NCBI GenBank assembly: GCA_026874595.1
Contig: CM049309.1
Span: 47,972,079-48,036,078, forward strand
Source: Sipunculus nudus
Lineage: Eukaryota > Annelida > Sipuncula > Golfingiida > Sipunculidae
Reading direction: 5' to 3'
Length of the DNA: 64,000 nt
Position 1 is the stretch's first letter; every line of letters starts with the position of its first letter. Under the pieces are notes generated by a model, which worked only from the letters and a program-made list of their open reading frames with translations, was not told where the DNA came from and made no database searches. The translations under genes and the position numbers were made by a program. This document shows positions 8,650 through 47,904 of the stretch, piece by piece.

Positions 8650-9224
8650 CTAGACATTTCTTGGCACGGCAGGTGCCAGAGTATCCCCAGACATAGTAGG
8701 CCCCCCTCCTACAAGAACAGACCCCCATTTTTAGCAGCATATACTGACATTTGGCATATTTATTGTTTATTCCATATAACGATCCACAATCTTGTTGAAG
8801 ATGTTGGTCCTGTGACCTTGATCTTTTTAAAGATGTGTCCTGTGACCTTGACCTTTGATCTCATAACCCCAAAATCAATTTGGGTCTTGCTTTTCCAATG
8901 GGACATATGCTAGTCAAGTTTGAAATCTATACATCAATAAAGCAGGAATTATCATCCAGAAACTTATTTTTGGACAGATGGCTCCTGTGACCTTCACCTT
9001 TGACCTTGTGACCTCAAAACTGATAGTGTTGTTCCTCTCTTGGCAGGAGAACTATATGTGCAAGATGAAAGATATGAGATGAAATGTTTGGCTGAAAATG
9101 CATCCACATCTTTTTAAAGATGTGTCCTGTGACCTTGACCTTTGACCTCATGACCCCAAAATCAATTTTGGTCTTACTTTTCCAATGGGACATATACAAG
9201 TCAAGTTTGAAATCCATACATCAA

Positions 9225-10559
9225 CTAGAATATCAGCAAAAGCTGACAAAAGCCCTCAGCCAAAAGAACAGTGTTTAGAGGTGGTAACAGTAACAAGTAC
9301 TAAATATCTGTTCTCACATGGTTGATATCTGTACATATCTCAGTTATAAATTTAAAATGGAGAGGTATGTACCATGATTCATAACAATCCACCAAATGCT
9401 TCCTGAAAAATAAGCTTCTAAGTTTTATTCTATTATAAGCTCTGTGACCTTGAGAGTAGGTCAAGGTCACCCATGTTCGAACATGAACGAGACTTTTGTC
9501 GATATACATCTTCACGAAAGAAATAAAATTCCTATTGTGATTCCTTTAAGAGATATCCCGCTCACAAGGCCAAAGTTGAAAAATCCAAGAAAAATTCAAT
9601 AAAAAATCAGAAATTGCAGGTGGCGCCCCCAAACTTGTGCAGCAGTTACAGACCATCAGTCCCTATGATCATAGTAAGTATTGTGAAAATCCATCCAATG
9701 GTTCCTGAGAAATAAGCTTCTAAATGTTTTTTCTATAATCAGCTCTAAAACGTAGAAAAATAGGTCAAGGTCACCCATCTTCGAACTTGACCGAGATTTT
9801 GTCAATATACATCTTCTCCGAAAAATAAAATTCTTATGGTGAATCCTTTTCGAGATATCCTGCTCACAAGCCCAAAGTTGAAAAATCCGATAAAAATTCA
9901 TTAAAAATCAGAAATTGTAGGTGGCGCCACCAAACTTGTATAGCAGGTACAGACTATCAGTCCCAATAACCATAGTAAGTTTTGTGAAAATCCACCAAAT
10001 GGTTCCTGAGTAATAAGCATCTAAGTGTTTTTTCTATAATCAGCTCTAAAACGTAGAAAAATAGGTCAAGGTCACCCATCTTCAAACTTGACCGAGATTT
10101 TGTCAATATACATCTTCTCCGAAAAAATATAATTCTTACGGTGAATCCTTTTCGAGATATCCCGCTCACAAGCCCAAAGTTGAAAAATCCGATAAAAATT
10201 CATTAAAAATCAGAAATTGTAGGTGGCGCCACCAAACTTGTATAGCAGGTACAGACTATCAGTCCCAATAACCATAGTAAGTTTTGTGAAAATCCACCAA
10301 ATGGTTCCTGATTAATAAGCATCTAAGTGTTTTTCTATAATCAGCTCTAAAATGTAGAAAAATAGGTCAAGGTCACCCATCTTCGAACTTGACCGAGATT
10401 TTGTCGATATACATCTTTACCGAGGAAATAAAATTCTGACGGTGAATCCTTTTCAAGATATCCCGCTCACAAGGTAAAAGTTAACGGACGCCAGACGGAC
10501 GGACGGACGGACAGCTTGGGTGATGACAATAGCCCATCAGCCTAAGGGCTGAGGGCTAA
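9225..10559 (-). mobile_element. Family 3 helentron-like element, nested in family 2
   Basis: In reverse, the 5' end (about 10559) reads TTAGCCCTCAGCC and folds onto GGCTGATGGGCTA. It is followed by a (GTCC)n run. The 3' end carries GGCTGAGGGCT (complement of the 5' end), the hairpin TCAGC-TTTT-GCTGA and CTAG at 9225-9228. The interior has about three 302-bp tandem units, each with GGTGGCGCCACC or a variant (near 9615, 9920, 10223). The flanks join into an uninterrupted family 2 repeat unit (CATCAATAAAAGCAGG occurs intact elsewhere in the array). That fixes the boundaries to within a base or two. Confidence 0.72.
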
Positions 10560-12000
10560 TAAAAGCAGGAATTATCATCCAGAAACTAATTTTTGGACAT
10601 ATGGCTCCTGTGACCTTCATCTTTGACCTTGTGACCTCAAAATTGATAGGGGTCTTCCACTCTTGGCAGGTAAACTATATGTGCAAGAGGAAAGATCTGA
10701 GATGAATTGTTTGGCTGAAAATGCATCCACAATCTTTTTAAAGAGGTTTCCTGTGACCTTGACCTTTGACCCCATGACCCCAAAATCAATTTGGGTCTTG
10801 CTTTTCTAATGGGTCAATAACAAAGCCACGTTTGAAATCCATACATCAGTAAAAGAAGGAATTATCATCCAGAAACTAATTTTTGGACAGATGGCTCCTG
10901 TGAACTTCACCTTTGACCTTGTGACCTCAAAATTGATAGGGTTCTTCCTCTCTTGGCAGGTGAACTATATGTGCAAGATGAAAGATCTGAGATGAAATGT
11001 TTGGCTGAAAATGCATCCACATCTTTTTAAAGATGTGACCTTGACCTTTGACCTCATGACCCCAAAATCAATTTGGGTCTTGCTTTTCCAATGGGACATA
11101 TATAAGTCAAGTTTGAAATCCATACATCAATAAAAGCAGGAATTATCATCCAGAAACTAATTTTTGGACATATGGCTCCTGTGACCTTCACCTTTGACCT
11201 TGTGACCTCAAAATTGATAGGGATCTTCCACTCTTGGCAGGATAACTATATGTGCAAGATGAAAGATCTGAGATGAATTGTTTGGCTGAAAATGCATCCA
11301 CAATCTTTTTATAGAGGTTTCCTGTGACTTTGACCTTTGCCCTCATGACCCCAAATTCAATTCCGGTCTTGCTTTTCAAATGGGTCAAATACAAGTCAAG
11401 TTTGAAATCCAAACATCAATAAAAGAAGGAATTATCATCCAGAAACTAATTTTTGGACAGATGGCTCCTGCGACCTTCACCTTTGACTTTGTGACCTCAA
11501 AATTGATTGGGTTCTTCCTCTCTTGGCAGGTGAACTATATGTGCAAGATGAAAGATCTGAGATGAAATGTTTGGCTGAAAATGCATCCACATCTTTTTAA
11601 AGATGTGTCCTGTGACCTTGACCTTTGACCTCATGACCCCAAAATCAATTTGGGTCTTGCTTTTCCAATGGGACATATATAAGTCAAGTTTGAAATCCAT
11701 ACATCAATAAAAGCAGGAATTATCATCCAGAAACTAATTTTTGGACAGATAGCTCCTGTGGCCTTGACCTTTAACCTTGTGACCCCAAAATTTATATGGA
11801 TCATCCACTATTGGCAAGTGAGCTATATATTCAAGATGGAAGACCTGGGATGAAAGTTTGGCTTAAAATGCATCCACAGTATCTTTTAAAATGCCAGTCC
11901 AGTGACCTTGACCTTTGACCTCATGACCCTAGAACCTATAGGGTTCTTACTTTAGTGGTGGGCCATACATAAGTCATGTTTGAAATCCATATGGCTATCA
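10560..12000 (-). repeat. Tandem array of about 290-bp units (family 2 interior)
   Basis: At least four units run from 10560 to about 11960, each beginning AAAGCAGGAATTATCATCC and carrying alternating blocks of TGACCTT-CACCTTTGACC and TGACCTTGACCTTTGACC type. One more unit precedes the nested element (8800-9224). Short ORFs here come from the repeat and are not genes. Confidence 0.8.
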
Positions 12001-12599
12001 ACACTGGAGATATCATAGAGGTGTGTGATTTTCACCATATATGGCAATATTCAAGGTCAAGGCCACTATCATAGGAAAGGTCATGACCCCAATTTAAATA
12101 AGCATCATCCCATAACCCATACCTATGTATATGCATAATATAAAAGAAATCTGTCCATTAGTTTTTGACTTATAATGCTCACAATGCTGTAAGGTGGCAA
12201 TTTTGGGGGTATTAAACGGCACGAAAACAAGTAAAGAATAATAGGTGGCGCCACCAGTTTCTGGAACATGACAACCCTATCCATGATCTTCCATCAACTT
12301 GATTTTGGGATAAATCCATGCAAGATATCTTGAGATATTAAAGAATTTGTGGGATTTTCCCCAAAATTGGACCTATTCAAGGTCAAGGACACTCTCCTAG
12401 TAAAGGTCATGACCTCATTTTAGATAGGCGTCGTCCTCTTACCCATATCTATACATATACCAAGTTTGGTAAAGTTCGGTGAAATATTTTTTGGGTTATC
12501 GCGCCAACAAGATTCATATGTGGCGGCGGAGGCGGCGGGACCGGTATGAAAACATAGTATCCCCCGACTTTGTCTGGGGATACAATTAATTTATTAAAG

Positions 12600-14265
12600 G
12601 GATGAAATCAAGAGCAATATTATGCCTATTCTTCACACTATCAGTTCAGTTTTGCTTTATACAAAAATTTCCCAGCAAAATCATCCAAGCACACAGTCTC
12701 AGTACCTTGCATTCGGCTGTTAAACACCTTGTTATGGCTCTGGGTGTTTGTAAACACAGTCCACTTGAGTCTGTTTATCATAACCAATTTTGAGCCACAA
12801 CACCGATGTTTCAGCCAGCTGGAATATGCATAACATTTCAGGGGTCAAGTCAGTTAGGGCATCTCATGATTGGCAGGTGTTGTGGCCCTGCGATGCACAG
12901 AGTCCCATGTCTGCAAAATTTCAGGTGGAAAAGTCAAACCACTGCTGAGATACGAGTGATTTTATCCTAAGGCAGATGAATAGATGGATGATGTGCATAA
13001 ATGGTTGCAGGTGGCGCCACCAGTTTCACCTATGATGAAGAGCTATGTGAGATCTATACACATGCAAAATTTTGGCCTAATCGGTCAAACAGTTCCCCAG
13101 ATATCAGCTTGGATGTCTGCAGAGTAAACATGAATGTAGGTGGTGCCACCTGTCATAAAATCGAGAAAGCTGTCCAGGATGTATAAACCTGCAAAATTTC
13201 AGGTGGAAAAGTCAAACCACTGCTGAGATATGAGTGATTTTATCCCAAGGCAGATGAACAAATGGACGCTGTGCAAAAATGGTTGCAGGTGGCACCACCA
13301 TTTTTAGTGTATGTTATAAAGTTATCAAAGGGCTACATTTGTACAAAATTTTTAGCCTGATCAGTCAAACGGTTCCCGAGATATGTGGGTTTATATGTGG
13401 ACACAGACGCACAAATGGATGCTGGGCAGCGAGGAAAGGTCAGAGGTCAACCAAAAATGAGGGCGCAGCAGTTTACATGTGACCTGATGATAAACCTGAT
13501 TCGCTAAAAATGCAAACCAAGTTTTTTCAAACAGTTGAAAGATAAAGTTCCAATAATCTGGGAATTCTGAATCTAAACATTGTGTCTAGACGTCTAGACG
13601 CTGTGTCTAGATGTCTAGACACATTGTCTAGACATCCGCCAGAGCCAGTTCAGTTGCCATGGTGATGTCTGGACCCCACCTGTTTGTACTGAGTGACCTC
13701 TTGACTTGGCTGCTGAAACTCAGCATCTTGTAAAATCTGTTTTCAAATACAAAAAGCCTTTTTCAATTGGCTACAATGCTTTTTTAAAGCTGTATTTACC
13801 CAATCTATTCTTATAAAACTGGCAGAACCCTACCATAGAATAATTCTTGTAAAGTTTAAACCAATCAGCTTAACATTTTCATCATAAATCAGTGTATAAG
13901 CTAGAAGAGTTTAAAATTACATTTTCTCTTGTAAAAAACACATCAATGTACGTGGCGCCACCAATACCTCAATTTCAGATATGACATATGTGACAAACAT
14001 TGGTATAAAATTTGGTGATTATAGCTCTAGCAGTTTCTGAGATTTTAATTTTAGTGTGTTTTTTTGGACAGATGACTAAGTTCAACCTCCTGTAACTCAG
14101 CCAAAAATCTCCGAAATGGAACCATTCGAACAAACTTAAGAGAGATTGTTCCAGGGATCATTTCTGTGAAATATTGGACAATTTGCCTGGACATTTTCGG
14201 AGAAGAAGATTTTTAAAGTTTTTTTTAGCTTTTTCCCTATAAAATCTAAGAAAATGCAGTTAGAA
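12600..14265 (-). mobile_element. Degenerate family 1-like repeat with GTCTAGAC cluster
   Basis: From about 12830 it contains family 1-type units in reverse with GGTGGCGCCACC (13010) and variants (13140, 13289, 13951). At 13584-13633 there is a cluster of four GTCTAGAC palindromes, followed by sequence shared with 27600-28345. Clear termini are missing, so limits are approximate. The segment 12600-12830 shows nothing recognisable. Confidence 0.5.
13584..13633. repeat. Cluster of GTCTAGAC palindromes
   Basis: Exact copies at 13584-13591, 13592-13599, 13613-13620 and 13626-13633, plus one near copy. A homologous cluster lies at 27684-27733, so it belongs to a repeat. Confidence 0.85.
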
Positions 14266-14925
14266 AAAAAAACAAGGGACCCATGGGTCACGGCGCTCAG
14301 CTGATTGTGATTGGACCATAAATGATTCTCCATTTTGATACTATATCGAGTCGATAAAGCTTAAGAATATTATGGACATGTTGGGCTATTATAAAGGAAT
14401 GTAATGTAATATGTGAGTAAATAATAAATGAAATAACCTGACTGATGGATTAATAGAGTAAAATATAGTAGTTTATTTTTTATTTATTTAGGAGGGGTTG
14501 AAAATTGCGATATATCTGAGCAAATATGAATGCAATGACAGCAGTAATAAGCAGTAGCAGAATGATGAATAGGCTATTTGTTGAAGGATCTATAGTGTAT
14601 GGAAGTCTGCAAGATTTAAATTTGACAGATATGATGTTATGATTTACTATGCTGATGAGGGGATTTATGAATTTGTTACTGTATGACACAATATCTCTTC
14701 AGTCTTGACAATGTACATTATTTTGATGCCAACCATGTCTACATATTACACAATATTGACATAATTTAGAGCAAGTACATAGGTACCTATGGACGAATAG
14801 TTATACAAAATATTTAAGTATGAATATATCTGATTCATCTTGTTCTTGTTTACTGAGGCTGACATTGGGATGGGGCTCAGAGAAGGGTACAGTGAGGGCA
14901 GCTATGAGGTGGATGTAGAGAGAAA

Positions 14926-14930
<5 letters not shown>

Positions 14931-14960
<30 letters not shown>
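14931..14960. repeat. (GA)n microsatellite
   Basis: An uninterrupted AG run of about 28 bp within a purine-rich stretch (14920-14990). Confidence 0.9.
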
Positions 14961-14968
<8 letters not shown>

Positions 14969-15673: not shown

Positions 15674-15804
<131 letters not shown>

Positions 15805-15899
15805 TATTTCAGTTGATTCACATTTCTAAATTGCTTCAACATTCATAGCTAATTCATCTGGTTTATAGTACCTGTCAACAGAATGGGGTGCAGGGAGAA

Positions 15900-16012
15900 T
15901 GGGAGGCTTAGGGGGGAGAGAGAATGGGAGAGGGAGGGAGAGAAAGAGAGAGAGAAAGAGAGAGAGCAAGAAAGAGTGAGCTAGACTGTCATGGAGAGAG
16001 AGAGAGAGCGAG

Positions 16013-16073
<61 letters not shown>
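15900..16073. repeat. (GA)n microsatellite region
   Basis: A purine-rich region ending in a nearly perfect 55-bp GA run (16018-16073). Earlier parts are interrupted GA repeats. Confidence 0.9.
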
Positions 16074-16074
<1 letters not shown>

Positions 16075-18534
16075 CTCTCTGGTAATTACTGCCTGACCCA
16101 GCCTGACCCAGACATCACAGAGGCAATGGCTAGGTCAGAAGTTGAACTGGTTATGTAATACTGCCCAAGCACACATTTCACTGACTTGATGATAACAATC
16201 AAGGCATGGTGCTTGAAAACTTGAATGACATCTACAGTTTTTGATCAATTGGTTTCAAATTTCAGATTTTAACAGATGAAATGCTTTGTGTACATGCTGT
16301 GAAAATTAAATCCACAGCACTAACACTAGTAACAGGAAATAAATGTCCACTGTAAGTCATGTTAATTATCATGCATGCTCTTTACAAATGAGTTAACTGT
16401 TATTCACGTTGCCCATAGCCAAAAGTACCACTACCACAAATGATATGAGAGTTAAACTATTCATCAAAATTAATTGGAATTATTGGGCAAAACATAATTT
16501 TAATTGAAAAATATTAACAGTAACATTTGAAAAGATTTCTTTTAATAATATAATTGAAATAAATGATTAAAATAAATTATAAAATATATTCATGAATGCA
16601 TTAATGAATAAACTTAGAAAGTATTTGCACTCAAATTCTTTCTTTTTACCTGTATTAGTATTTGTATTAATTTTCATTATTGAACTATTGAATTTTTTTT
16701 AATCATATTTGAATAAAATTATTAATATTTCACTCAAGGTCTCATATTTATTCAGTTTCAGTCGAACTAAACTGTTGAGAATCCAGAATATACAAATATC
16801 ACAAATTTAAATAATGATTGTAACTACCTGGTTTTATGGCTTTAATTTATAAAAAAATATATTCACTTTTGAATACTTCACATCACTGTCAAGACACTTA
16901 TGACAATTATTAACATTACAGACATCATAATGAGAACTTGTCTTTAAGACCTGATTTTTTATCACATTTTAAAATTTTTATTTTTTTTTTTAATTTGTAT
17001 CAGAAAAAAAGAAAATAATCTCTACAATGAAACTAATACATGTGTTAAAAGAAACCCAAGGATAAAAACAAACAAATATATTATACAAGATGCAAACTGG
17101 AGTTGGGAATGTTTAATTTTATTAACTGAAATAAAGTTATCAGAAATATAAATTTTGATTATTTACCCAGTATCATGTAACAGCTGTTAAGGCCATGAGT
17201 CTGAATGTTATTATTCAAACATATTGACATCTTTAATGAGTACTTGTCTGAGTAATTTTTTTTTTTAATTTTTGACATATTTCATTTTTTTTTAATTTTG
17301 TAATAAAAAAAACTACAAATTAAACACCTGGAAAAGACCTGGAAATTTAGAATATTTAATATGATCAAATGCATCCTTGTCTATCATTAACTTGCTTCAC
17401 ATAATCCCTTATAGTAAACAACAATTTTATTTAATTATTTATTTTTCATTTTTATGATTGAAATTAAAAAATACCCAATGATGACTGCATGGTGTCATTT
17501 GAAATATATTTTCAGCAATCCATGAAAGATCCATAAAACATCAGTAATTGCAAGGTCCCTGTTACTCATTAACCATAAAATTACTTTTCCATTTAATTTT
17601 CTTAAAGTTGTTATTGTAAACCAATAATTTTTTAAAATTATTGTTTATTGTTATGTTTTTGGCCAAACAATTACAAGAAGGGGGGGTGAATAGCTATATC
17701 CAGCTGAGGCCACCCAAGAGCTGGCTGGCTGCAGTATATGCCTCGCTTCAAGCATGAAAGGTCAATATGGGGACATATAGAGGGGCTTCAGTACAGCCTT
17801 GGTGTGACATGGTCTCATAAAAAATGTAATAAAAGCTACAGTTTTTGGTCAATTCCTTTCAAATTTCAGAATTTAGAAGCTGAAATCCTTACATGTGCAT
17901 GATATGAAAAATTAAACCAAGTACTTACAGGGAAAAAAAGTGCCATGCCCAAATTTGGGCAAAATTTTAGGTACTGATTTTATATTTATGCGAATAACTT
18001 ATAAAATTTGAAAAATTCAGATCTAATTTTCGGTATACAATTGAATCTTGATTAAATGGAGTTATATCCCTGAAAAGAAGTCTCTAGCTTCAGCCATTCT
18101 TATGTTAAGTGAGTTAATATATTTCCTTTTTTTTTATGAGGTGCATTATGTTCCCACCCATAACTTCATCATATAACACAATACTGACCTAATTTTTGGT
18201 ATGTACATAGAAAATGTATGGAAGAATATGCGTATTAACTATGAACAAAATCAGATCAGTGGTTTTGACATTAGGCAGTCTTATAGTGTAACAATGGTTT
18301 TTTTTATGGAAAATGGAGGTTTTTCCTTAATATCTCAAAGGAACGAAGTCCTAATGACCCAATTTTCGGTATGGTAGGAGATTTTGGGGACATCTTAACT
18401 GTATGCCAAATTTCGGATTCGTAGGTCTAACGGTTTCAAAACGTGCAAGTTTAACGGACGGACAGCGGACAGACAAAGGACCACGACTATAGCTCATATG
18501 ACTAATAGTCAGCTGAGCTAAAAAATCCGATAGA

Positions 18535-18680
18535 GTTTTTCAGAAGACTGATTATTTGCAAAAAATTTGGTGATGCTAGCTTATGCCGTTTTTGAGATAG
18601 CTATGGTTAACGTACAAACGATGCATGACAGAAGACGCACGACGCCGCACCATCGCATAAGCTCACTGGTTCGATAAAAA
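18535..18680 (-). repeat. Fragment of a fifth element family (terminal part)
   Basis: Ends CGCATAAGCTCACTGGTTCG followed by an A-rich run. The same terminus occurs at 28500-28545, with a GACGCACGACGC/GGACAGCGGAC-type run just before it. By analogy this is another 5' terminus read in reverse; the 3' end was not found. Confidence 0.4.
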
Positions 18681-20399: not shown

Positions 20400-22456
20400 T
20401 AAGGCCAAAATAAAAAAAATGTATGGTTCTCAGGCACTTTTTTTCAGAAATCAATGCGGGCGGGCGCTTTTTTTATTTTAAATTTTTGGTATGTTTCGAT
20501 AAAAATGTCAAATGATAAGGGAAAAGCATGAAAATAACAGTTTTATTTTGATAAATAAGTAAAAGCACTACAAAACAAAGGAAATTGTATGGTTTTATCT
20601 TCTTGAAAGAAAAATGTTGGGGCGGCAGCAGCTCAAAATTGGAAAGTTTTTATCGAAAATCAAAATAAAAATGTTTGATGCGGGGGTTTAAAATTGATGC
20701 GGGCGGTGCCTGAGAACCATACCTTTAATTGTATCCGCCAAAACAGAGTTTTGCGGATACTATGTTTTCAGCTGGTCGCCGCCGCCGCCGCCGCCGCCGC
20801 GTAGGTGTCCGGAGAACTCCTCCGTAACCGCTGGGCGGAATTTTCCGAAACCCGGGATTATGTTCGGGTCACATGTGAACTGCTGCGCCCCGATTTTGTT
20901 TTGACCTCTGACCTTTCCTCTGCGCTCTGCGTCCGTTTGTGCGTCTGTTTCCACACATAAACCCACATATCTCGGGAACCGTTTGACCGATCAGGAAAAT
21001 TTTTTTGCACAAATGTAGCCCTCGGAGAGCTTTATAACATACACCAAAAATGGTGGCGCCACCTGCAACCATGTTTGCACAGTGTCCATCTGTTCGTCTG
21101 CCTTGGGTTAAAATCACTCATATCTCTGCAGTGACTTGACTAATTCACCTGAAATTCGGCATGCGCAAACATCCTGGATAGCTTTTCTGATTTTATGACA
21201 GGTGGCGCCACCTACATTCACGTTGACGCTGCAGACATCCAAGCTCATATCTCGGGAACCGTTTGACCGATCAGGAAAATTCTTTTGCACAAATGTAGCC
21301 CTTGGAGAGCTTTATAACATACACCAAAAATGGTGGCGCCACCTGCAACCATGTTTGCACAGTGTCCATCTGTTCGTCTGCCTTGGGTTAAAATCACTCA
21401 TATCTCTGCAGTGACTTGACTAATTCACCTGAAATTTGGCATGCGTATACATCCTGGATAGCTTATCTGATTTTATGACAGGTGGCGCCACCTACATTCA
21501 CGTTTACGCTGCAGACATCCAAGCTCATATCTTGGGAACCGTTTGACCGATCAGGAAAATTCTTTTGCACAAATGTAGCCCTTGGAGAGCTTTATAACAT
21601 ACACCAAAAATGGTGCCACTACCTGCAACCATGTTTGTACAGTGTCCATCTGTTTGTCTGCCTTGGGTTAAAATCACTCATATCTCTGCAGTGACTTGAC
21701 TAATTCACCTGAAATTTGGCATGCGTATACATCCTGGATAGCTTTTCTGATTTTATGACAGGTGGCGCCACCTACATTCATGTTTACGCTGCAGACATCC
21801 AAGCTCATATCTCAGGAACCGTTTGATTGATCAGGAAAATTTTTTTGCACAAATGTAGCCCTTGGAGAGCTTTATAACATACACCAAAAATGGTGGCGCC
21901 ACCTGCAACCATGTTTGCACAGTGTCCATCTGTTCGTCTGCCTTGGGTTAAAATCACTCATATCTCTGCAGTGACTTGACTAATTCACCTGAAATTTGGC
22001 ATGCGTATACATCCTGGATAGCTTATCTGATTTTATGACAGGTGGCGCCACCTACAATCAAGTTTACGCTGCAGACATCCAAGCTCATATCTAGGGAACA
22101 GTTTGACCAATTGGACCAAAATTTTGCATGTGTATAGTTCTCACAAAGCTCTTTATCATACGCTAAACTGGTGGCGCCACCTGCAACCCTTTTTTGCACA
22201 GCGTCCATCTGTTTGTCTGCCAAGGGCAAAAATCACTCATATACAATATAGTGGTTTGACTTATCTGCCTTAAATTTTGCATATGTATACAACTTGGACG
22301 GCTTTCTGGGTTTTTTGGTAGGTAGCGCAACCTACATACACAATTTGGCTGCAGACATCCATGCTGATATGCAACACTTCACCCGTTCCACTCTGATTTA
22401 GGCGGATACAAGTAGTCGCTTGTCGACTACCCGTATTCTAGTTTTTTTTGGCCTAA
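20400..22456. mobile_element. MITE with long TIRs, split by a family 1 element
   Basis: Left part 20400-20730, right part 22442-22456. Left end AAGGCCAAAATAAAAAAAAT then GTATGGTTCTCAGGCAC; the inverse (GTGCCTGAGAACCATAC, then TTTTTTGGCC) is at the right. This gives terminal inverted repeats of about 38 bp on an element of about 340 bp. The uninterrupted copy at 60450-60788 confirms the structure. No coding capacity. Confidence 0.8.
20731..22441 (+). mobile_element. Family 1 helentron-like element, copy a
   Basis: The 5' end GTATCCGCCAAAAC folds onto GTTTTGCGGATAC (loop AGA), followed by a (GCC)n run. The interior has about four 280-bp tandem units from about 21000 to 22200, each with two GGTGGCGCCACC palindromes alternately about 150 and 130 bp apart. 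The 3' end has GGCGGATACAA (complement of TTGTATCCGCC at the start), the hairpin GTAGTCG-CTTGT-CGACTAC and CTAG at 22438-22441, against a T run. 1711 bp; non-autonomous. It sits inside the TTTT of a MITE, so its limits are exact apart from shared T bases. Confidence 0.8.
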
Positions 22457-22891: not shown

Positions 22892-22985
22892 AATTTTCAA
22901 CTAAATAAGATGCCTTGTCCCTATAGATCATTTCTTAATTGTATCCGCCAAAACAGAGTTTTGCGGATACTATGTTTTCAGCTGG

Positions 22986-23016
<31 letters not shown>

Positions 23017-25247: not shown

Positions 25248-25694
25248 AAAAACATTCAACATTATTACCACTAGCTTATCTTCATTTAATAATTGGAAAT
25301 AGTTTTGATACAACATAAAAAATCTAGGAATCCTCCGCCCTGAGAATTTATATTTGACATTTTAATATTTTATATAAATCTTAGGCAAGGAAATCTTTAA
25401 CTACTACTTAGTCTCTAAGATCCATTTAAATAGACTACACACTTCATGATGATGATTATTATTTTAATCAAGTGATGATAAACTTTCATGAAATTAAACC
25501 AAAATAATGCTGCAGATTAAGCAAGGCCTACAGGCCTTATGCGAACCTGTGCAAAGTTTGGGAGTATGAATGGAGGTTTATTTTTAAAATTTAATATTGA
25601 TCCTTTTAAGTCCTGCATCACTACCTTAGTCATTATGATTTCAGCAAAATGGACATTTCGGAACCTGCAAGTTTCAGATTAGGACATTTTAAAA

Positions 25695-27600
25695 CTAGAA
25701 TATGGGTAGTCGACAAGGGACTATGTGTATCTGCAGAAATCAGAGTGATATAGTTAAAGTGAGGCATGGATTAAGTGGCAAGCGTAATAAAATGAGGTGT
25801 GTTTCATATTAGCATGGATGTCTGCAGCGTAAACGTGAATGTAGGTGGTGCCACCTGTCATAAAATCGAGAAAATTGTCCAAGATGTATAAACCTGCAAA
25901 ATTTCAGGTGAATTAGTCAAACCACTGCTGAGACATGAGCAATTTTATCCAAAGGCAGATGAACAGATGGACGCTGTGCATAAATGGTTGCAGGTGGCGC
26001 CACCAGTTTTGCCCATGATGAAGAGCTATGTGAGATCCATACACATGCAAAATTTTGGCCAAATCGTTCAAACGGTTCCCGAGATATGAGCTTGGATGTA
26101 TGCACAGTAAATGTGAATGTAGGTGGCGCCACCTGTCATAAAATCGAGAGAACTGTCCAGGATGTATAAACTTGCAAAATATCAGGTCGATAAGTTAAAC
26201 AACCACTGCTGAGATATGAGTGATTTTATCAAAAGGCAGATGAACAGATGGATGCTGTGCATAAATGGTTCCAGGTGGCGCCACCAGTTTTGCCTATGAC
26301 GAAGGGCTATCTGAGATCTATACACATGCAAAATTTTGGCCAAATTGTTCAAACAATTCCCGAGATATGAGCTTGGATGTATGCAAAGTAAATGTGAATG
26401 TAGGTGGCGCCACCTGTCATAAAATCGAGAAAGCTGTCCAGGATGTATAAACCTGCAAAATATCAGGTGGATAAGTCAAACAACCACTGCTGAGATAGTG
26501 GTGTTTTTATCCCAAGGCAGATGAACAGATGGATACTGTGCATAAATGTTTGCAGGTGGCGCCACCAGTTTTACCTATGATGAAGAGCTATGTGAGATCT
26601 TATACACATGCAAAATTTTGCCCCAATCGGTCAAACGGTTCCAGAGATATGAGCTTGGAAGTCTGCAGAGTAAATGTGAATGTAAGTGGCGCCACCTTTC
26701 AGATAATCGAGAAAACTGCCCAGGATGTAAAAACCTGCAAAATTTCAGGTGGATAAGTTAAACAACAGCTGAGATATGAGTGATTTTATCCAAAGGCAGA
26801 TGAACAGATGGGTGCTGGGCATAAATGGTTCCAGGTGGCGCCACCAGTTTTGCCTCTGATGAAGGGCTATCTGAGATCCATACACATGCAAATTTTGGCC
26901 CAATCGGTCAAACGGTTCCCGAGATATGAGCTAAGATGTCTGGAGAGTTAATGTGAAAGAAGGTGGCGCCATCTTTCATAAAATCGAGAAACCTGTCCAT
27001 GATGTATAAACCTGCAAAATTTTAGGTGGATAAGTCAAATCACTGCTGAGATATGAGTGATTTTAACCCAAGGCATATGAACAGATGGGTGCTGTGCATA
27101 AATGTTCCAGGTGGCGCCACCAATTTTGCCTATGATGAAGGGCTATCCGAGATCTATACACATGCAAAATTTTGGCCCAATCCGTCAAACGGTTTCAGAG
27201 ATATGAGCTTGGATGTCTGCAGAGTAAACGTGAATGTAGTAGCGCCACCTGTCATAAAAATCAAGAAAGCTGTCGAGGATGTATAAACCTGCAAAATTTC
27301 AGGTGGATAAGTCAAACCACTGCTGAGATATAAGTGATATTATCCCAAGGCAGATGAACAGATGGACACTGTGCAAAAATGGTTGCGGGTGGCGCCACCA
27401 TTTTTAGTGTATGTTATAAAGCTATCAAAGGGCTACATTTGTGCAAAATTTTTAGCCTGACTGGTCAAATGGTTCCCAAGATATGCGGGTTTATGTGTGG
27501 AAACAGACGCACAAATGGACGCTGGGCAGCAAGGAAAGGTCAGAGGTCAACCAAAAATGAGGGCACAGCAGTTCATATGTGACTTGATGATAAACCTGAT
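25695..27600 (-). mobile_element. Family 1-related element, older copy in reverse
   Basis: The left end has CTAG at 25695-25698, then GGTAGTCGACAAGGGACTA, a degraded version of the 3' hairpin. Six or more diverged 280-bp units follow, with GGTGGCGCCACC at about 25992, 26122, 26274, 26402, 26553, 26833, 27109 and 27388. The right part matches the 5' region of copies a and b (GGGCACAGCAGTTCATATG-type stretch), but the 5' hairpin itself is absent. The repeat-derived ORFs here (MVAGGATSF-type) are not genes. Confidence 0.65.
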
Positions 27601-28345
27601 TCGCTTAAAATGCAAACCAAGTTTTTTCAAACAGTTGAAAGATAAAGTTCCAATAATCTTGGAATTCTGCATCTAAACATTGTGTCTAGACGTCTAGACA
27701 CAGCCTCTAGACGTCTAGACACATTGTCTAGACACCCCCCCCCCCCAGCCAAGTCAGTTGCCATGGTGATGTCTGGACCCCACCTGTTTGTACTGAGTGA
27801 CCTCTTGACTTGGCTGCTGAAACTCGGCAAGTTGTCAAATCTGTTTTCAAATATAGAAAGCCTTTTTCAATTGGCTACAATGCTATTTTAAAGCTGTTTT
27901 TACCCAATATATTCTTATAAAACTGGCGGAACCCTACAATAGAATAATTCTTGTAAAGTTTAAACCAATCAGCTTAACAGTTTCATCATAAATCAGTGTA
28001 TAAGCTTGAAGAGTTAAAAACTACATTTTCGCTTGCAAAAAACCCATCAATGTAGGTGGCGCCACCAATACCTCAAATCAGATATGACATATGTGACAAA
28101 CATTGACATAAAATTTGGTGATTATACCTCAAGCCGTTTCTGAGATTTTAATTTTAGTGTGCTTTTTTGGACAGATGACTAAGTTCAACCTCCTGTAACT
28201 CGGCCAAAAATCTCCGAACTGGAACCATTCGTACAAACTTGAGAAAGATTGTTCCAGGGATCATTTCTGTGAAATATTGGACAATTTGGCTGGACAGTTT
28301 CAGAGAAGAAGATTTTTAAAGGTTTTTAAGCTTTTTCTCTCTAAA
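27601..28345 (-). repeat. Repeat segment shared with 13490-14265
   Basis: Starts with AAAATGCAAACCAAG and carries the second GTCTAGAC cluster (27684-27733), a C run (27735-27747), one GGTGGCGCCACC (28056) and AGTTTC/CTCCTGTAACTC stretches. It is about 90% alike to the segment at 13490-14265 by eye. Confidence 0.65.
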
Positions 28346-28550
28346 ATCTAAATTAATGCAGATACCCAATAATAAGCTCCAGGGCACCAAGTTTCACATG
28401 TGACTAATTCTTACATGTAATTTGGAGCTGCTAGCTCCCACGGTTTCTGACTTACAGCCATGGACAGCGGAAAGCCAGCCCTGGACAGCGGACAGCTGAT
28501 GACGGATGGACAACGCTGCGCCATCGCATAAGCTCACAGGTTCGCTAATA
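28346..28550 (-). repeat. Fragment of the fifth element family
   Basis: Contains GGACAGCGGA-type repeats and ends CGCATAAGCTCACAGGTTCG, like 18535-18680. Confidence 0.4.
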
Positions 28551-28655: not shown

Positions 28656-28829
28656 ACTTTTTTTAAAATATTTGTGCCGTTGGGCACAGCCTTCCCATTA
28701 AACCTGCAGAGCGCTCACCCTGGGAGGGGGCTGACCGTGAAAAATCCTCACCGCCTCAGCTGAGATTCGAACTCACCATCTCTGGGCCCTCAGTCCTGTG
28801 CTCTATCCCTGAGCTACAGAAGCCAGTTT
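28656..28829 (-). mobile_element. tRNA-derived SINE, flanked by a 10-bp direct repeat
   Basis: Read in reverse, the head is tRNA-like: TAGCTCAGGGATAGAGCA fits the A box and AGTTCGAATCT the B box of an RNA polymerase III promoter. A non-tRNA body follows, then an A-rich tail (in the plus strand, 28656-28675). Direct repeats TGGTATCATA at 28646-28655 and 28830-28839 are the target duplication. Together these are diagnostic of a SINE mobilised by a LINE. Confidence 0.85.
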
Positions 28830-28839
28830 TGGTATCATA

Positions 28840-32029: not shown

Positions 32030-32165
32030 CCAGAAATATGCATACCATCAGAAATAATACTGTTCCAGAATTAATATAATGTATATTTTATGGGGTCTAT
32101 TATGAATTTAAAACTACCCTTGGACTGAATTTAGTTATAGGGTTTTTGCCAATTATGCTACCTTA

Positions 32166-32365
32166 TGGTTCTATCAAGATTTCACTGTTTTGCCTTTAAG
32201 GTTCTATCAAGATTTCACTGCTTTGCCTTTAAGGTTCTATCAAGATTTCACTGTTTTTCCTTTCAGGTTCTATCAAGAATTCTCTATATTGCCTTTAAAG
32301 TACTATCAAGACTTCACTATTTTGCCTTTAAGGTGTGATCAAGATTTCACTATTTTGCCTTTAAG
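32166..32365. repeat. 33-bp minisatellite
   Basis: About six diverged 33-bp units of the type GGTTCTATCAAGATTTCACT plus TTTGCCTTTAA. Because 33 is a multiple of three, it gives a spurious ORF with an 11-residue repeat (PLRFYQDFTIL). Confidence 0.85.
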
Positions 32366-33504: not shown

Positions 33505-33530
33505 CTAGTGGCCCATGGGCCATGACGCTC
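33505..33530 (-). repeat. Family 4-type 3' terminus with CTAG
   Basis: CTAG (33505-33508), the perfect 14-bp palindrome TGGCCCATGGGCCA and then CGCTCAGCTGA. This is the 3' terminus of a family 4 relative read in reverse; unlike the other copies it has CTAG rather than CTTG. Confidence 0.55.
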
Positions 33531-33694
33531 AGCTGAATTCAAGGAATATTGAACAATGAGCAAAATGACAGTGAGAGTGTAAAAAAATCATAGATTTTGT
33601 GAAGAATCCTAAGAAATGGGTTTTCGTGGGCTTTTGGACAGATAACCACTTCATTTGAAGCTCTCATAAATAGAAAAAATGTGTAAAAATTTAA

Positions 33695-35815
33695 CAAGGG
33701 ACCTATGGGTCAAGGCGCTCAGCTGTTATATAAGATAAAAAAATATGATTTTGAAATGAGGCACATGCTGGTTTTGTGTGGAAATAAATATAAGCTGTAT
33801 TATGAGTTGTTAGTGTTAAGCTTATGTATGATTTTGAGATTGATTTCATTTATTTTATTAACAAATGGAGTGCCACTGTCATACAGATTTTGACTTGGCC
33901 ATATAACTGATAAGCAGCACATATAAGATAAAGAGTTTAACTATTTATTAAAATTTAATAACAAATATTGTGCCAAATATAATTTTTATTAAAATAATAA
34001 GAGAATCATATGATTTTTTTAATAAAATATAACTGAAATGATAATTAAAATAATATTATAGAATATATTCATGAATGCATTCATGAATACATTTTGAAAG
34101 TATTTGCACTGGTATTCAAATACTTTCATTTTTACCTGAATTCCCATTCTTATGCAAGAAATTTTATAATGGAGTACATATTCATATTCATATTCATATA
34201 CATTTGCCAAGTATTCGCACCATGTCTGGTATTTATTCAGTTTTAGCCAAACAATGATTTAGAGAATCCAGAATATAAACAAAGGACCCATGGGTCACGA
34301 CAACCAGCTTAAGTTTGAAATTTGTGCAAATGCAAAATATGAAAAATATTCTATTGTAATGTTTTTTATTTATATAAGCACATGCGAAGCTAAGAGGAAA
34401 GGGCCCTCCTACTTGGTTATAGTAAAGTTCTCAATATATGATTGCAAACTAATACTCTGACAAGACTGTCAAAAAAAAACAGTAAAAGTTTTGAGATACT
34501 GTGATGCATATGAAAAATTTGCAGATGGACAGGCAAGTGGACAGAATGGACTAATACCTACCTTTCACTTTCAAGGGAATAATGCATTTAAGTTTATATA
34601 TAACAACATGGCATCTACAAAATTATTCCTTGAATCCCTATTAAAAAGTTTTGCACATAGGAGTTTTTAGTACATGCTTAATTTTATTCACCGAAATAAA
34701 ATAAAAGATTCAGTACATTTGATAAAATGCTAATTACAATCTCAGCTATAATTAATTACTGGAATTAATTGTCAATTTCACACCTGGTGAAGTTTTACTC
34801 TTCTGAAGTAAAGCATTACTTATCTGATGAACACATCACTTTGTGGACACAATTAAATGTGCACTTTAATCATTTTAACCCTGGTGGTACAATACAAAAT
34901 CTAAAATGTAGCATGTCCAAGAATAAAATAAAATACAGAAAATTATAACATTCATCTAGTTTATGCACCAGCTGGGGGGGGGGGGTGAGTGCAGGGCAGA
35001 GGGGAAGCCTGCTAGTAGTGGCCAAGCTGGGCCAAGGCAAGCTGCCTGGGGTGGGTTACATAATGCAAGTGAAGGCTGCACTACAAGGTGGGCCAGATGT
35101 AAACAACACTTGACATGGTGTATGAAAACTTGAATAAAAGCTACTCTTTTCAAACAATTTCTTTGAAATTTCAGATTTTAAAAGATTAAATTCTTATGTA
35201 TATATGCTGTGAAAATAACAGTACTTACAGGGAAAAAACATGCCACTGCCAAATTTGGACAAAATTTAAGGTATTGATTTTTTATTTATGCTAATAACTT
35301 GAACAATTTGCAAAATTCAGATTTAATTTTGGGTAAACAATTGAATCTTGATTAAATATTAAGTTATATTCCTGAAAAAAAGTCTCCAGCTTCAGCAATT
35401 CTCATGTTAAGTGAGCAAATATATTTCCTGATTTTTAAAAAATTGCATTATATTTGGGCCTATAACTTCAAAATAATACCCAATACTGACCTAATTTTTG
35501 GTATGTGCACTGAAAATGCATGGAAGAATAAGAATACAAAATCAGATCAAAAACAGATCAGTGGTTTTGATATTAGGCAGCCTTGAAGTGTAACAATGGC
35601 TTTTTTATGGAAAACGGAGGTTTTTCCTTAATATCTCGAAGGAACGAAGTTCTAATGACCCAATTTTTGGTATGGTAGGAGATTTTGGGGACATTTAATG
35701 GTATGCAGAATTTTGGATTAGTAGGTCCAACAGTTTTAAAACGTGCCCTGTTAACGGCCGGACGACGGACAAAGGACCACGACTATAGCTCAGATGACTT
35801 ATAGTCAGCTGAGCT
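33695..35815 (-). mobile_element. Family 4 helentron-like element
   Basis: The left (3') end has CAAG at 33695, then GACCTATGGGTC and GCTCAGCTG. The right (5') end is at about 35815 with the hairpin TATAGCTCAG...CTGAGCT and a GGACGACGGAC run just inside. Long internal stretches match 39533-41719. Another family 4-like 3' terminus (CAAAGGACCCATGGGTC, 34280) lies inside, so the copy is nested or composite. No coding capacity. Confidence 0.65.
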
Positions 35816-35948
35816 AAAAAAATATACAGGTAGTGCCACCAGTCTGCAGGAACTGATTAAACACTCCATGATCAATATGCATGCAAACAATCATGGCAGT
35901 CAATGCATAAGTTATTTATATACTGGATCTTTTGTATCACATTTTAAA

Positions 35949-37112
35949 CTATAATATGGGTAGTCGACAAGTGACTATGTGTATCTGCCGAAATCAGAGT
36001 GGGAAAGGTGAAGTGAGGCATGGATTGAGTGGCAAAGGGAAATAGAGTGAGGTGTGTTGCATATTAGCATGGATGTCTGCAACCAAAATGTGAATGTAGG
36101 TGGCGCCACCTACCACAAAATCAAGAAGGCTATCCAAGTTGTATACATATGCAAATTTTAGCCAGATAAGTCAAACCACTATTTGAATATGAGTGATTTT
36201 ATCCCACAGCAGACAAACAGAAGGTGGCTGTGCAAAAATGGTGGCAGGTGGCACCACCAGTTTGTGTACGATTAAGAGCTATGTGAGATCTATACACAAG
36301 CAAAATTTCAGGGGGATATGTCAAACCAGTCTTGAGATATAAGCCTGAATGTTTGCAGCGTTAACATAAATGTAGGTGGAGCCACCTGCCACAAAATCAA
36401 GAAAGCTATCAAAGATGTATAAACCTGCAAAATTTTATGGCAGATAAGTCAAAGTCACTCAAACCACTGCCGAGATATGAGTGATTTTATCCCACGGCAG
36501 ACAAACAGATGGACGCTGTGCCAAAATGGTTGCAGGTGGCGCCACCAGTTTTGTGTATGATAAAAAGCTATGTTAGATCTACACACATGAAAAATTTCAA
36601 AAGGATATGTGAAACCAGTCTTAATAATAAGCCTGTATGTCTGCAGCTTGAATGTGAACGTAGGTGGCACCACCTGTCATAAAATCAAGATAGCTTTCCA
36701 GGATGTATACACATGCAAAATTTCAGGTGGATAAGTCCAACCAATGCAGAGATATGAGTGATATTATCCTAAGGCAGATGAACAGATGGACGCTGAGCAA
36801 ATTGTTGCATGTGGTGCCACCATTTTTAATGTATCTTATACAGCTACTCAAGGGCTACATTTGTGCAAAATTTTTAGCCTGAATGGTCAAAAGGTTCCTG
36901 AGATATATGTGGATTTGTGTGTGGAAACAAATGCACTAAAGGACACTGGGCAGAGGAAAGGTAAGATGTCAACCAAAAATGAGGGCGCAGCAGTTCACAT
37001 GTGACCCGATCATAATTCTGAATTTTAAAAAATTCCGCCCTCTGGTTACGGAGGAGTTCTCGGGTACCTATGCTGACGCATAGGTGTCCAACTGAAAACA
37101 TAGTATCCCCAA
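35949..37112 (-). mobile_element. Family 1 element, old reverse copy
   Basis: Starts with a decayed 3' end (CTATAATATGGGTAGTCGAC). It contains diverged 280-bp units with palindromes near 36100 and 36535. It ends with the 5' region (GCAGTTCACATGTGACC, CGGAGGAGTTCTC, GAAAACATAGTATCC), but the outermost 5' hairpin is lost or changed. Confidence 0.65.
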
Positions 37113-37319
37113 ATTTGTATTTTTATAAAATTATTCAGGACATATGAGCCCAATAGCTTGGAGGATATGGGTAACAGAGACCTAATTTCAATTTTCCATG
37201 AAGACTATTCATGGACCACCCTGAAGTCAAGTATGAAGATCCCAGGTCAAGGGGCTACTATCTGTGCCCTCTAACAATATAAGGCTTTATTTGAATGTCT
37301 CAAAAATTAGGAAATGTGT

Positions 37320-37647
37320 AAAAATTTGAAAAAATACATGTGGTGCCACCAGTATGCAGGAACTGATGGAACACTCCATGATCAATATGCATACAAAGAA
37401 TCATGGATATCAATGCAGTAGTTATTCAGATACTTGAGGTTTTGTATCAAATTGTTGATTATTCTAGGGGGTACTTACAAGACCCATAGCTTGGAGACCT
37501 TATTTCAGGTTTCCAAGGAGATTTTTCATGGACCACCCTGGATGTCAAGTTATATTTGTGCCCTGTTAATGGATGGCCGGACGGCCGAACAGACGGATGG
37601 ACAAAGGGTGACTGCTACGGCTCAGATGACTTTCAGTCAGCTGAGAT
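37320..37647 (-). mobile_element. Family 4 terminal fragment
   Basis: Contains GTGGTGCCACCAGTATGCAGG and AACTGATGGAACACTCC stretches also found at 35830 and 39225. It ends with GACGGATGGACAAAGG and GACTTTCAGTCAGCTGAG, the family 4 terminus. Confidence 0.5.
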
Positions 37648-38748: not shown

Positions 38749-38840
38749 CTCTCCTTGAGAAATTCTGCAAATTCCTTACTGGAGAGCTGGCCATGTTTCA
38801 TGTTATGGTACAGTACATCAAACCCGTTATTCTTCTCCCC
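38749..38840 (-). CDS. FCHO2: FCHO exon 2 (F-BAR N-terminus)
   Basis: A 92-nt exon read in reverse, after a pyrimidine-rich acceptor ending TTAG and before a GTAAGT donor. It encodes residues 11-40 and begins [18 protein letters not shown], which is almost invariant in FCHO proteins. The rest reads [12 protein letters not shown], where vertebrates have a similar stretch leading into the first F-BAR helix. It enters in phase 0 and leaves with two extra bases (AG) that join exon 3. The sequence match, both splice sites and the phase agree, so this is the strongest single piece of evidence for the gene. Confidence 0.96.
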
Positions 38841-39047
38841 CTAAGGAAAAAGGTAGAAATATTTCACATTTTGTTTCCTCAATTAAATAATCTTAAAACA
38901 TATAGGTATGTTTTCCTGCAATTGAACTAGATTTGAATCTATATTAAACTGTATATCCCTCAGGGCATATTTTGGCAGAGCAGATACCTTGTAGTAAAAA
39001 CATCAAAATGATTTCTTGCTATGCTGAACCTGTTCACATGGAAAAAA

Positions 39048-39532
39048 CAAGTGACCCATGGGTCATGACGCTCAGCTGACTGGGAAGAGATTTGCAAAAG
39101 GAAATTTTATCATCTGAATGGTAGTATATACCCATTCAACTGAAGCATCAAACAGATTAACCAACAGGCTGAGATTGTGTCTGTATTAATATATCTAAAA
39201 AATAGAAAAAAAAAAAATACAGGTGGCTCCACCAGTCTGCAGAAACAAATAAAAACACTTAATGTTCAATATCCATGCAAAGAAGCATGGTGGTCTCTGG
39301 ATTAGTTGTTCAGATACTTCAGCTTTTGTATCAAATTTTCCATTATTCTGAGGGATACTTTGCAGTCCTATAGCTTGGAGGATATGGGTAACAGAGACCT
39401 AATTTCAGGTTTCCACAGACACTTTTCATGGGCCTCCTTGCATGACAAGAATGAAGATTCTAGGTCCAGTTGTTACAATTTGTACCTTGTTGACAGATAA
39501 CCACATCTTTAAAGGTCTCAAAAATAAAGAAA
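39048..39532 (-). mobile_element. Family 4-like 3' portion, interrupted
   Basis: CAAG at 39048, then TGACCCATGGGTCA and GCTCAGCTGA. The body has a GGTGGCTCCACC variant (39223) and resembles 37320-37600. The next element starts inside it at 39533. Confidence 0.5.
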
Positions 39533-41719
39533 CAAGGGACCTATGGGTCACGACGCTCAGCTGTTATATATGATAAAAAAATATTATTTAGAAATGAGGC
39601 ACATGCTGGTTTTGTGTGGTTATAAATATAAGCTGTATTATGAGTTGTTGTTGTTTAGCTTATGTATGATTTTGATAGTACCTTTGGAGACAGGGAAGAG
39701 GATTGATTTCATTTATTTTATTAACAAATGGTGTGCTATTGTCACACAGATTTTGACTTGGCCATTAACTTATAAGCAGAATATATAATATAAGGGTTTA
39801 ACTTTTAATTTAAAAAAATTACAAATATTGTCCCAAATATTATTTTTTTTAAAAATAATAAGAGAATCATATGATTTTTTAAAATGAAATATAACTGAAA
39901 TGATTATTAAAATAATATTAAAGAATATATTCATGAATGCATTCATGAATACATTTTGAAAGTATTTGCACTGGTATTCCTATACTTTCATTTTTACCTG
40001 AATTCCCATTCTTTATGCAAGAAATTTTATAATGGAGTACATAATCATATTCGTATTTAAATACAATTACAAAGTATTCGCACCATGACTGTTATTTATT
40101 CAGTTTTCACCAAACAATGATGTTGAGAATCCAGAATATACAAAATTCACACATTTAAATAATGATCATAAGTACCTGGTTTTATGGCTTTTATTTATAT
40201 TAAAAAAAAAATGTAATAAATTCATTTTGGACTAATTTCACATCAATGTACACACTAGACACAGTAGGAATCTAGATTAATATTATCAACTGCATCTTTG
40301 TCTATCATTAATTTCCATCATATGATCCCTAATGACTTCTTTATCATTAAAATTGAACTGAAAAATACCATAGGTGACTGCATGGTGTTATTTGGAATAC
40401 GTGACATTCTATCCATCGATACAAGATTCTTATATCATCAGTAACTGCAAGTTAATTTCCTGTTATTATAAACTAACAAATTTCTTTTCTATTTTTCTTT
40501 AATTTTTTATTAAAAACCAATAAAAATTTATTAATTTATTGTTTATTGTTATGTAGTTGGTTAAAACTACTAGATGAGTTGGGTTGGACACCTGTATCAA
40601 CTGTGGCTGGCCATAAGCTGCCTGGATTCCCCTGTAAGCCTCGCCTCAAGCATGCATAATTTGCTGAAAGCCCATAACTTAAAACAATTACGCAATACTG
40701 ACATCATTCTGGCATGTGCATAGAGAATGAAAAATATGTATATTATTTATGATTAAAGTCAGATCAGTGGTTTTGATATTAGGCAGTCTTGAAGTATAAC
40801 AATGGGTTTTTAATGGAAAAATGAAGTTTTTCATTAATATCTTGAAGGTATTAAGTCCTAGTGACCAAATTCTTGGCATGGTAGGGGATTTTGGAGACAT
40901 CTAGCTGTATGCGGAATTTAAGGAACTAAGAGCTGAAGCTGGGGAGCTGAGCTCTTGCAAACTGCATAACACTAGCTTGATGTAAACAATATGTTACATG
41001 GTGCTTGAAAACTTGAATAAAATCTACAGTTTTTGATCAACTGGTTTCAAATTTTTGGTGTTAACAGTTGAAAAGGTAACAAAAACATGCTGTGAAAACT
41101 AAATCCACAGTACTCACAGGAAAAAAACGTGCCATGGTCAAAGTTGGGCAAAATTTAAGGTACCAATTTTTTATTTTTATTAATATTTTAAAAAATTTCA
41201 AAGATTTTCATCTAATTTTGGGTATACAATTTAATTTTGATTAAATAAAGTTATATTACTGGAAAAAAGGTCCATAGCTTTAACATGTTTTGTGTGAAGT
41301 GATCAAATATCTTTCCTGATTTTTTACAAAATGCATTATGTTTGGGTCCATAACTTTTTTAAATTATATAATACAGACATAATTTCTTGAACGTACATAG
41401 GAACTATATAGAGGAATATTTATGGTAAATATGAGGAAAAACAGATGAGTGGTTTTGATATTAGGCAGTCCTGAAGTGTGAAAAAAGGTTTTTAATAAAA
41501 AATTGAGGTTTTTTCTTAATTTCTCAAAGGAACGAAGTCGAAAAGACCCAGTTTTTGGCTTGGTAGGAGATCTTGGGGACATCTAACATTATGCCGAATT
41601 TTGGATACCTAGGTCTTACGGTTTCAAAACGTGCCACATCTACGGACGGACGGACAGACGGACGGACGACGGACAATGGACCACGACTATAGCTCAGATG
41701 ACTTATAGTCAGCTGAGCT
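39533..41719 (-). mobile_element. Family 4 helentron-like element
   Basis: Left (3') end CAAG, GACCTATGGGTC, GCTCAGCTG. Right (5') end at about 41719: a long (GGAC)n run (41643-41675) and then the hairpin TATAGCTCAG...CAGCTGAGCT. About 2.2 kb, homologous along most of its length to 33695-35815. Non-autonomous. Confidence 0.7.
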
Positions 41720-47900: not shown

Positions 47901-47904
47901 TTTT

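Follow-up and report, generated by a model that had tools for sequence, protein, structure and literature searches.

A 64,000-nucleotide stretch of the Sipunculus nudus genome (NCBI GenBank assembly GCA_026874595.1, contig CM049309.1, positions 47,972,079 to 48,036,078 of the forward strand; hereafter the window) carries several repeat families that differ in sequence but follow one structural plan, which raises the question of what kind of element they are and how far they are related. A preliminary description of positions 8650-41719 had regarded families 1-4 as unrelated, compared them with non-autonomous helentron/Helitron2 elements and proposed that their ends might form an undescribed common terminal code. 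Our analysis indicates that they are very probably several non-autonomous Helentron families (HINE, Helitron2 type), taken here as new members of a known element kind. The fresh result is a shared core beneath different ends: the interiors of families 1 and 3, of the family 4 element 4d, of a diverged element at 48 kb and probably part of family 2 are likely to descend from one monomer of ~140 bp, which kept a constant orientation to the ends and has the 12-bp palindrome GGTGGCGCCACC among its best-kept blocks. The elements concerned are listed below, where subTIR denotes the subterminal inverted repeat.

20731-22441, plus strand: family 1 copy a, a HINE with the GTATCCGCC subTIR, a (CCG)n run, 280-bp units, a 3' hairpin and CTAG.
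22941-24656, plus strand: family 1 copy b, a separate insertion, 99.2% identical to copy a.
8650-12583, minus strand: family 2 HINE with the GTATCCCCAGA subTIR, a GCC-rich run and 289-bp units, split by family 3.
9225-10557, minus strand: family 3 HINE with the AGCCCTCAGCC subTIR, a (GTCC)n run and 301-bp units, inserted inside a unit of family 2.
33695-35815, minus strand: 4a of family 4, with the AGCTCAGCTGAC subTIR, an irregular GTCC-rich run and a CTTG end, inserted in 4d.
33505-37647, minus strand: 4d of family 4, with a CTAG end and units of ~320 bp, host of 4a and A4; extent inferred from the nesting.
39048-41719, minus strand: family 4 composite, consisting of a 4a copy (39533-41719) and a 4d-type 3' portion ending at 39048.
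35949-37122, minus strand: A4, an old family-1-type element within 4d with a decayed 5' arm; right boundary approximate.
25695-28545, minus strand: A3, whose units and 3' end are of family 1 type while its 5' end differs (AGCGAACCTGTGAGC); the right boundary is approximate.
12911-14262, minus strand (from its homology to A3): partial copy of A3 type, 91% identical to 27012-28364.
47903-49120, plus strand: the 48-kb element, diverged and family-1-like, with a 5' hairpin, a GCC run and eight monomers; no 3' end was seen.

The tandem units, measured at 280, 289 and 301 bp in families 1, 2 and 3, agree with the 280-300 bp given in the preliminary description. The two copies of family 1 share 99.2% identity across 1727 aligned bases yet occupy separate target sites, and are therefore read, from this comparison, as two young insertions.

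Each of families 1-4 was found to possess the parts ascribed to it, including all four hairpins, two of which are shifted by 1-2 bases. The family 1 3' hairpin GTAGTCG/CGACTAC sits at 22412-22430 and again at 24627-24645, TGGCAC/GTGCCA at 8662-8678 and TCAGC/GCTGA at 9233-9246 (formerly 9231-9244), whereas the GACCCATGGGTC hairpin lies at 14278-14289 (formerly 14279-14290) and recurs at 34285 and 39053, with variants at 33510, 33700 and 39538. Read on the element strand, family 1 starts with GTATCCGCCAAAAC-AGA-GTTTTGCGGATAC and ends with GGCGGATAC, the hairpin and CTAG; family 2 starts with GTATCCCCAGACAAAGTCGGGGGATAC and ends with TCTGGGGATAC, the hairpin and CTAG; family 3 starts with AGCCCTCAGCCCTTAGGCTGATGGGCT and ends with GGCTGAGGGCT, the hairpin and CTAG; family 4 starts with AGCTCAGCTGACTATAAGTCATCTGAGCT and ends with CAGCTGAGC, a palindrome and CTTG or CTAG. 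The elements thus begin with GTATCC or AGC. In families 1-4, a 3' subTIR with a perfect 9-11 bp complement in the 5' subTIR lies upstream of the 3' palindrome, and a palindrome or hairpin near the 3' terminus was found in 4/4 families. The microsatellite inside the 5' end is of the CCG type in families 1 and 2 and the 48-kb element, and of the GTCC type in family 3 and, irregularly, in family 4; none was seen at the 5' end of A4. Truncation of A4 at the hairpin apex was considered and dropped, since its 5' end can also be taken for a decayed arm.

Chance origin of these structures was ruled out by three controls, namely hairpin folding, a structural finder run on shuffled windows, and the count of GGTGGCGCCACC given below. 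Six 5' hairpins (families 1-4 and the 48-kb element) fold with z-scores from -4.65 to -8.20, and none of 200 shuffles was as good for any of them. The six 3' ends gave z-scores of -2.94 (family 1), -1.80 (family 2), -2.19 (family 3) and -0.77, 0.02 and -0.37 (family 4), with 0, 15, 7, 46, 100 and 64 of 200 shuffles as good, respectively. The structural finder, which requires a subTIR pair, a 5' hairpin, a 3' hairpin and CT[AT]G followed by T, recovered six element-like end pairs and one cross-pairing between the two family 1 copies, compared to 0, 1, 0, 1, 0, 0, 0, 0, 0 and 0 pairs in ten Markov-shuffled windows; having been designed after the elements were seen, it serves as a chance control rather than a blind test. 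One of its two family 4 pairs links the 5' end of 4a with the 3' end of 4d, and it misses the 3' ends near 14273, 33695, 34281 and 39533 along with A3, A4 and the 47903 element, the missed ends being older or having shorter stems.

Empty sites reveal how the elements inserted. For family 1b, AATT|element|TTTTGATT compares cleanly with AATTTTGATT in a tandem-duplicated flank (24925-25010). This flank belongs to a 319-bp tandem duplication of 98% identity (24657-25248), which preserves the empty target site beside family 1b. For family 3, TTTTATT|element|TTGATG compares cleanly with TTTTATTGATG in family 2 units, five others of which are uninterrupted at the insertion point. The 4a site is a T-run in a 4d unit, also clean against the uninterrupted 4d unit at 37285-37360. 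For family 1a, AATT|element|TTTTTTTTGG was compared with AATTTTTTTGG in a paralog near 60.75 kb (60735-60790), of which ~340 bp of left flank match at 94%. Target sites are T-runs, with no further duplication at the three clean empty sites or at the fourth, whose right-hand match is short. Target duplications longer than 2 bp, which the preliminary description had set against a Helentron origin, were not found: 2 T were gained at families 1b and 3, and ~2-3 T within the longer T-runs at families 1a and 4a.

These sites also bear on two other classes of element. DDE-type miniature inverted-repeat transposable elements (MITEs) carry inverted repeats at the very tips of the element and produce a target duplication of fixed length. 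An origin of the families as such MITEs would account for inverted repeats near both ends, and DINE-1 was once called a MITE family (PMC2374699). However, the repeats here lie subterminally and lack symmetry, a hairpin with CTAG forms one end, and nothing longer than the T-run is duplicated at the empty sites, so that we consider this origin highly improbable. Canonical Helitron1 elements insert between A and T. Non-autonomous members of that group would share the 3' hairpin close to a CTAG end, and are described with a 5' TC, a 3' CTRR and no 5' hairpin (PMC3627910). By contrast, the present elements start with GTATCC or AGC, possess a 5' hairpin and occupy T-runs, which leaves a Helitron1 assignment very little credence.

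Insertions are nested, family 3 in family 2, and both 4a and A4 in 4d. In the composite at 39048-41719, a 4a element abuts the 3' portion of a 4d-type element whose remainder is missing; this could be the product of 3' read-through into another element's end during rolling-circle copying, or of plain deletion.

Several observations weigh against a Helentron assignment. No autonomous Helentron with these ends was seen in the window. The 3' palindromes of family 4 are no better folded than shuffles and show no energy outlier, and the 5' end of A3 has no match to its 3' subTIR, no 5'/3' subterminal pairing being seen in this element. Among the empty sites, the right-hand match for family 1a is short, consisting of the T-run and about seven further mismatch-free bases, and a fifth site, that of A4 in 4d, is ragged though compatible. 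Nevertheless, the anatomical traits of Helentron/Helitron2-like non-autonomous elements that can be assessed in the window were all found, and the interiors of families 1-4 have no detected genes. A Pfam scan of the 28 listed stop-to-stop open reading frames (ORFs) that reach 90 aa and lie wholly within the window found no Rep or helicase domain.

We propose that a Helentron located elsewhere in the genome would supply the Rep-helicase protein that mobilizes the elements in trans. Rep would nick at the junction between T and element, and a single strand would be peeled off or copied 5' to 3', with the 3' hairpin and CTAG marking the stop. Pairing of the 5' and 3' subTIRs, in competition with the 5' hairpin, would mark the end point, as Bao & Jurka proposed.

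The terminal code turned out to be already described, which rules out its novelty. In the 2013 account of Bao & Jurka (PMC3627910), the 5' hairpin arises from the 5' terminal repeat, a subterminal 3' repeat stands just before the 3' hairpin, and compensatory changes, a replication-endpoint model and a switch between 5' hairpin and end-to-end pairing are presented. The same plan, with TT insertion and a microsatellite, was reported for DINE-1/HINE by Thomas et al. 2014 (PMC4067079), and the order of subTIR, inverted repeat, 3- to 8-nt microsatellite, tandem repeats, subTIR and palindrome for the oyster by Vojvoda Zeljko et al. 2020 (PMC7492417). Together with PMC11136912, PMC8268682, PMC12628747 and PMC5139131, these sources cover the parts of the plan, including the 5' hairpin that uses the subTIR and the microsatellite. 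Helitron2 is defined by protein phylogeny as well (PMC3627910), whereas the present elements are known from their DNA ends. Similar to HINE/DINE-1 (PMC4067079), they have subTIRs, an inverted repeat nested in the 5' subTIR, a 3' palindrome, a microsatellite, TT insertion without target change and a non-coding interior, but the 3' subTIR lies ~22-32 bp from the 3' end, compared to 38-60 bp in mite elements. They likewise resemble the Cg_HINE elements of Crassostrea gigas and Pearl (PMC7492417) in the succession of subTIR, inverted repeat, central tandem repeats, subTIR and palindrome, in T-rich sites and in a 3- to 8-nt microsatellite, several of those in the oyster containing GTCY, GTCC or GTCK; the consensus units there measure 138-181 bp as against 280-301 bp here.

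Comparison of the ends revealed that the four families are not all unrelated. Families 1 and 2 have 37/42 bases in common from the 5' inverted repeat into the GCC run. At subTIR position 7, where the two families differ (G or C), the 5' inverted repeat and the 3' subTIR each carry a matching change; at position 9 the matching change is in the 3' subTIR only. Because the two families share their 5' end sequence and their subTIR differences are mirrored in the partner arms, families 1-4 are, judged by sequence, three terminal lineages rather than four unrelated ones, and A3 adds another, different 5' end. The preliminary description thus holds in that these three lineages differ, whereas it does not for families 1 and 2, nor for the interiors of families 1, 3, 4d and, more weakly, part of 2, which look related as set out below. 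From its unpaired subterminal repeats, A3 looks like a chimeric or half-exchanged element. A 5' end of A3 type (like AGCGAACCTGTGAGCTTATGCGATGG) recurs near 18670, in the region 18525-18680.

The relationship of the interiors emerged from the palindrome and the units around it, of which two examples are:

9920-9931, no strand assigned: the GGTGGCGCCACC palindromic core, example copy in family 3.
12231-12352, minus strand: the ~140-bp shared monomer, family 2 copy.

GGTGGCGCCACC occurs at 55 places in the window with at most two mismatches (32 perfect), compared to 0.46 expected, a count reached in 0/100 shuffles; 54 of the 55 are inside elements, namely families 1, 2 and 3, 4d and the 47903-49120 element. 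The 280-bp unit of family 1 consists of two halves of ~140 bp. Upstream of the palindrome, in element orientation, the aligned units share two further blocks, one resembling ATATCTCAGGAAC and the other AATTTTGCATG. Profiles built with one family left out recovered each family, with best E values of 5.9e-8 for the group labelled F1x (4e-5 for its other copy), 1.8e-9 for family 2, 3.1e-11, 2e-9 and 1.8e-8 for three family 3 units, 8.5e-10 and 9.1e-6 for two 4d units, 5.1e-20 for the 48-kb element and 3.7e-20 for the family 1 group. With the palindrome masked in both profile and target, the whole window searched and the family 1 group thinned to every fourth unit, the best E values were 0.027 (F1x), 0.061 (family 2), 1.5e-5 (family 3), 0.0024 (4d) and 1.3e-12 (48-kb element), compared to 0.83, 0.35, 0.7, 1.2 and 8.9, respectively, in the reversed window. 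These whole-window values err on the conservative side, because it was clear in advance where the matches should fall and on which strand. The main matches fall on the strand of the element itself and, in every family, are oriented alike relative to the ends. Elements of 4a type gave three weak matches near their 5' ends (E 0.0062, 0.019 and 0.58).

The case for a common monomer is weakened by the following results. The homology of F1x and family 2 outside the palindrome is weak on its own (best E 0.027 and 0.061), and additional masked matches in the five families are as weak as 0.12-2.9. A masked profile from family 1 only gave E values of 0.016 for family 3, 0.048 for 4d, 0.071 for F1x and 1 for family 2; 20 shuffles per target gave 1.7 at best. 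The 289-bp units of family 2 have no match at E up to 1, and the third 4d unit (35829) had no same-strand match among those listed when 4d was left out, possibly because a region filter from 35816 cut it. Moreover, short opposite-strand matches appear wherever the palindrome occurs, with E down to 6e-4, and the identical columns across six families (11/12 in the palindrome versus 12/127 elsewhere) are biased, since the units were chosen by the palindrome.

Alternatively, the interiors might have been captured separately, each HINE family taking up units of one widespread satellite of the BIV160/Cg170 kind while the ends arose independently. Oyster elements do combine related ends with unrelated repeats (PMC7492417), a 2025 review describes the same arrays in different Helitron elements (PMC12628747), and BIV160/Cg170 are members of a large family of satellites marked by two conserved motifs (PMC5139131). 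However, repeated capture requires no fixed orientation, whereas the main matches keep one orientation to the ends in every family, and families 1 and 2 have 5' end sequence in common as well. We therefore regard separate capture as a possible but not the favored explanation, and descent from one monomer as the probable one. The likeliest home of this monomer, by analogy, would be the bivalve satellite family with two conserved motifs: BIV160/Cg170 are diverged monomers with two such motifs, related to Pearl (CvA) repeats (PMC5139131), and are likened to it here by description only.

Literature searches found no earlier report of a core shared under different HINE ends; for the palindrome string, none of the papers listed had a title on molluscan repeats, figures and supplements lying outside the search. 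Short patterns from the window had no relatives in viral and prokaryote contig collections, which is uninformative on other animals. The sole viral-contig match (L001) covers 18 bp of a GC-rich contig with no further similarity, and was rejected as chance.

Whether the palindrome is under constraint was addressed with 19 family 1 units cut by array register rather than by motif. The mean divergence is 0.044 in the palindrome columns versus 0.135 elsewhere, and among 263 windows the two that hold the palindrome are the 2nd and 10th most conserved. The 54 element copies of GGTGGCGCCACC contain 30 mismatches, nine of which are CpG transitions and five G>A at position 4. A single symmetric double change is present, in the same unit of both young family 1 copies, and it does not restore pairing. 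This pattern leans towards a putative duplex binding site rather than a hairpin. Retention of GGTGGCGCCACC by function, as a putative site for a host or transposon protein and beyond mere common descent of the arrays, would agree with the low divergence in family 1 and with a mismatch pattern of CpG and G>A changes in which no double change restores pairing. Other windows of the family 1 unit (AAAATCACTCAT and TGCAGACATCCA) are equally conserved, however, so that selection on GGTGGCGCCACC is not established and such a function seems doubtful. The fuller proposal, in which differently ended HINE families share an ancient monomer whose palindrome is selected as a putative protein site, the interior being a functional module with exchanged termini instead of random filler, we consider unlikely on present sequence comparisons. 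A CTCF-like reading of the palindrome, a guess from the CTCF core motif, found no support in the literature, and was set aside; the matching strings in PMC7883824 are genome-editing targets.

Further features were recorded in the window. One of the 28 scanned ORFs exceeded the Pfam cut-off, with a Smad-type MH1 domain at 56633-57157, which marks the window as animal DNA; the repeat type by itself would suggest a mollusc, probably a bivalve, as the source. Matches below the cut-off were DUF1467, DUF1538, HPS3_N and KCTD1-15_CTD; the KCTD1/15 C-terminal domain match (E 0.0014) lies in the ORF at 45148-45507 on the minus strand, possibly an exon or a pseudogene. A 33-bp tandem repeat of 6.2 copies (32163-32365) sits within a 101-aa ORF that has no Pfam family above the cut-off. 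AGGTCA direct repeats with one-base spacing (DR1), which we take to be nuclear-receptor-like, occur at 31 places in the window with at most two mismatches, compared to 4.36 expected, among them places in 8806-11921 and in family 1 5' regions (13437, 20902, 23118 and 27537). AGGTCA hexamers number 85 in the window, whereas 50 Markov controls average 30.6; elements contain 61 of the 85, including 36 in family 2. A repeat resembling a short interspersed element (SINE) with a tRNA-like part is present at 28676-28823 and 50520-50611, with an 86% match between 28676-28768 and 50520-50611, and ARAGORN places a tRNA-Leu within it at 28752-28823 on the minus strand.

Altogether, the repeated plan corresponds to the published Helentron/HINE plan and can be explained without new transposon machinery. 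Oyster elements have related ends with unrelated repeats, or are related or unrelated throughout (PMC7492417), whereas in the window the repeats are related and the ends differ, which inverts what group 2 of the oyster shows. Should the palindrome be a protein site, many copies of it would be spread by these elements, which contain 54 places with at most two mismatches in this window. In the oyster, unlike modules in HINEs were interpreted as having been acquired independently (PMC7492417). Profile comparison ties together interiors that share little beyond one short block, and counts of independent origin may be too high.

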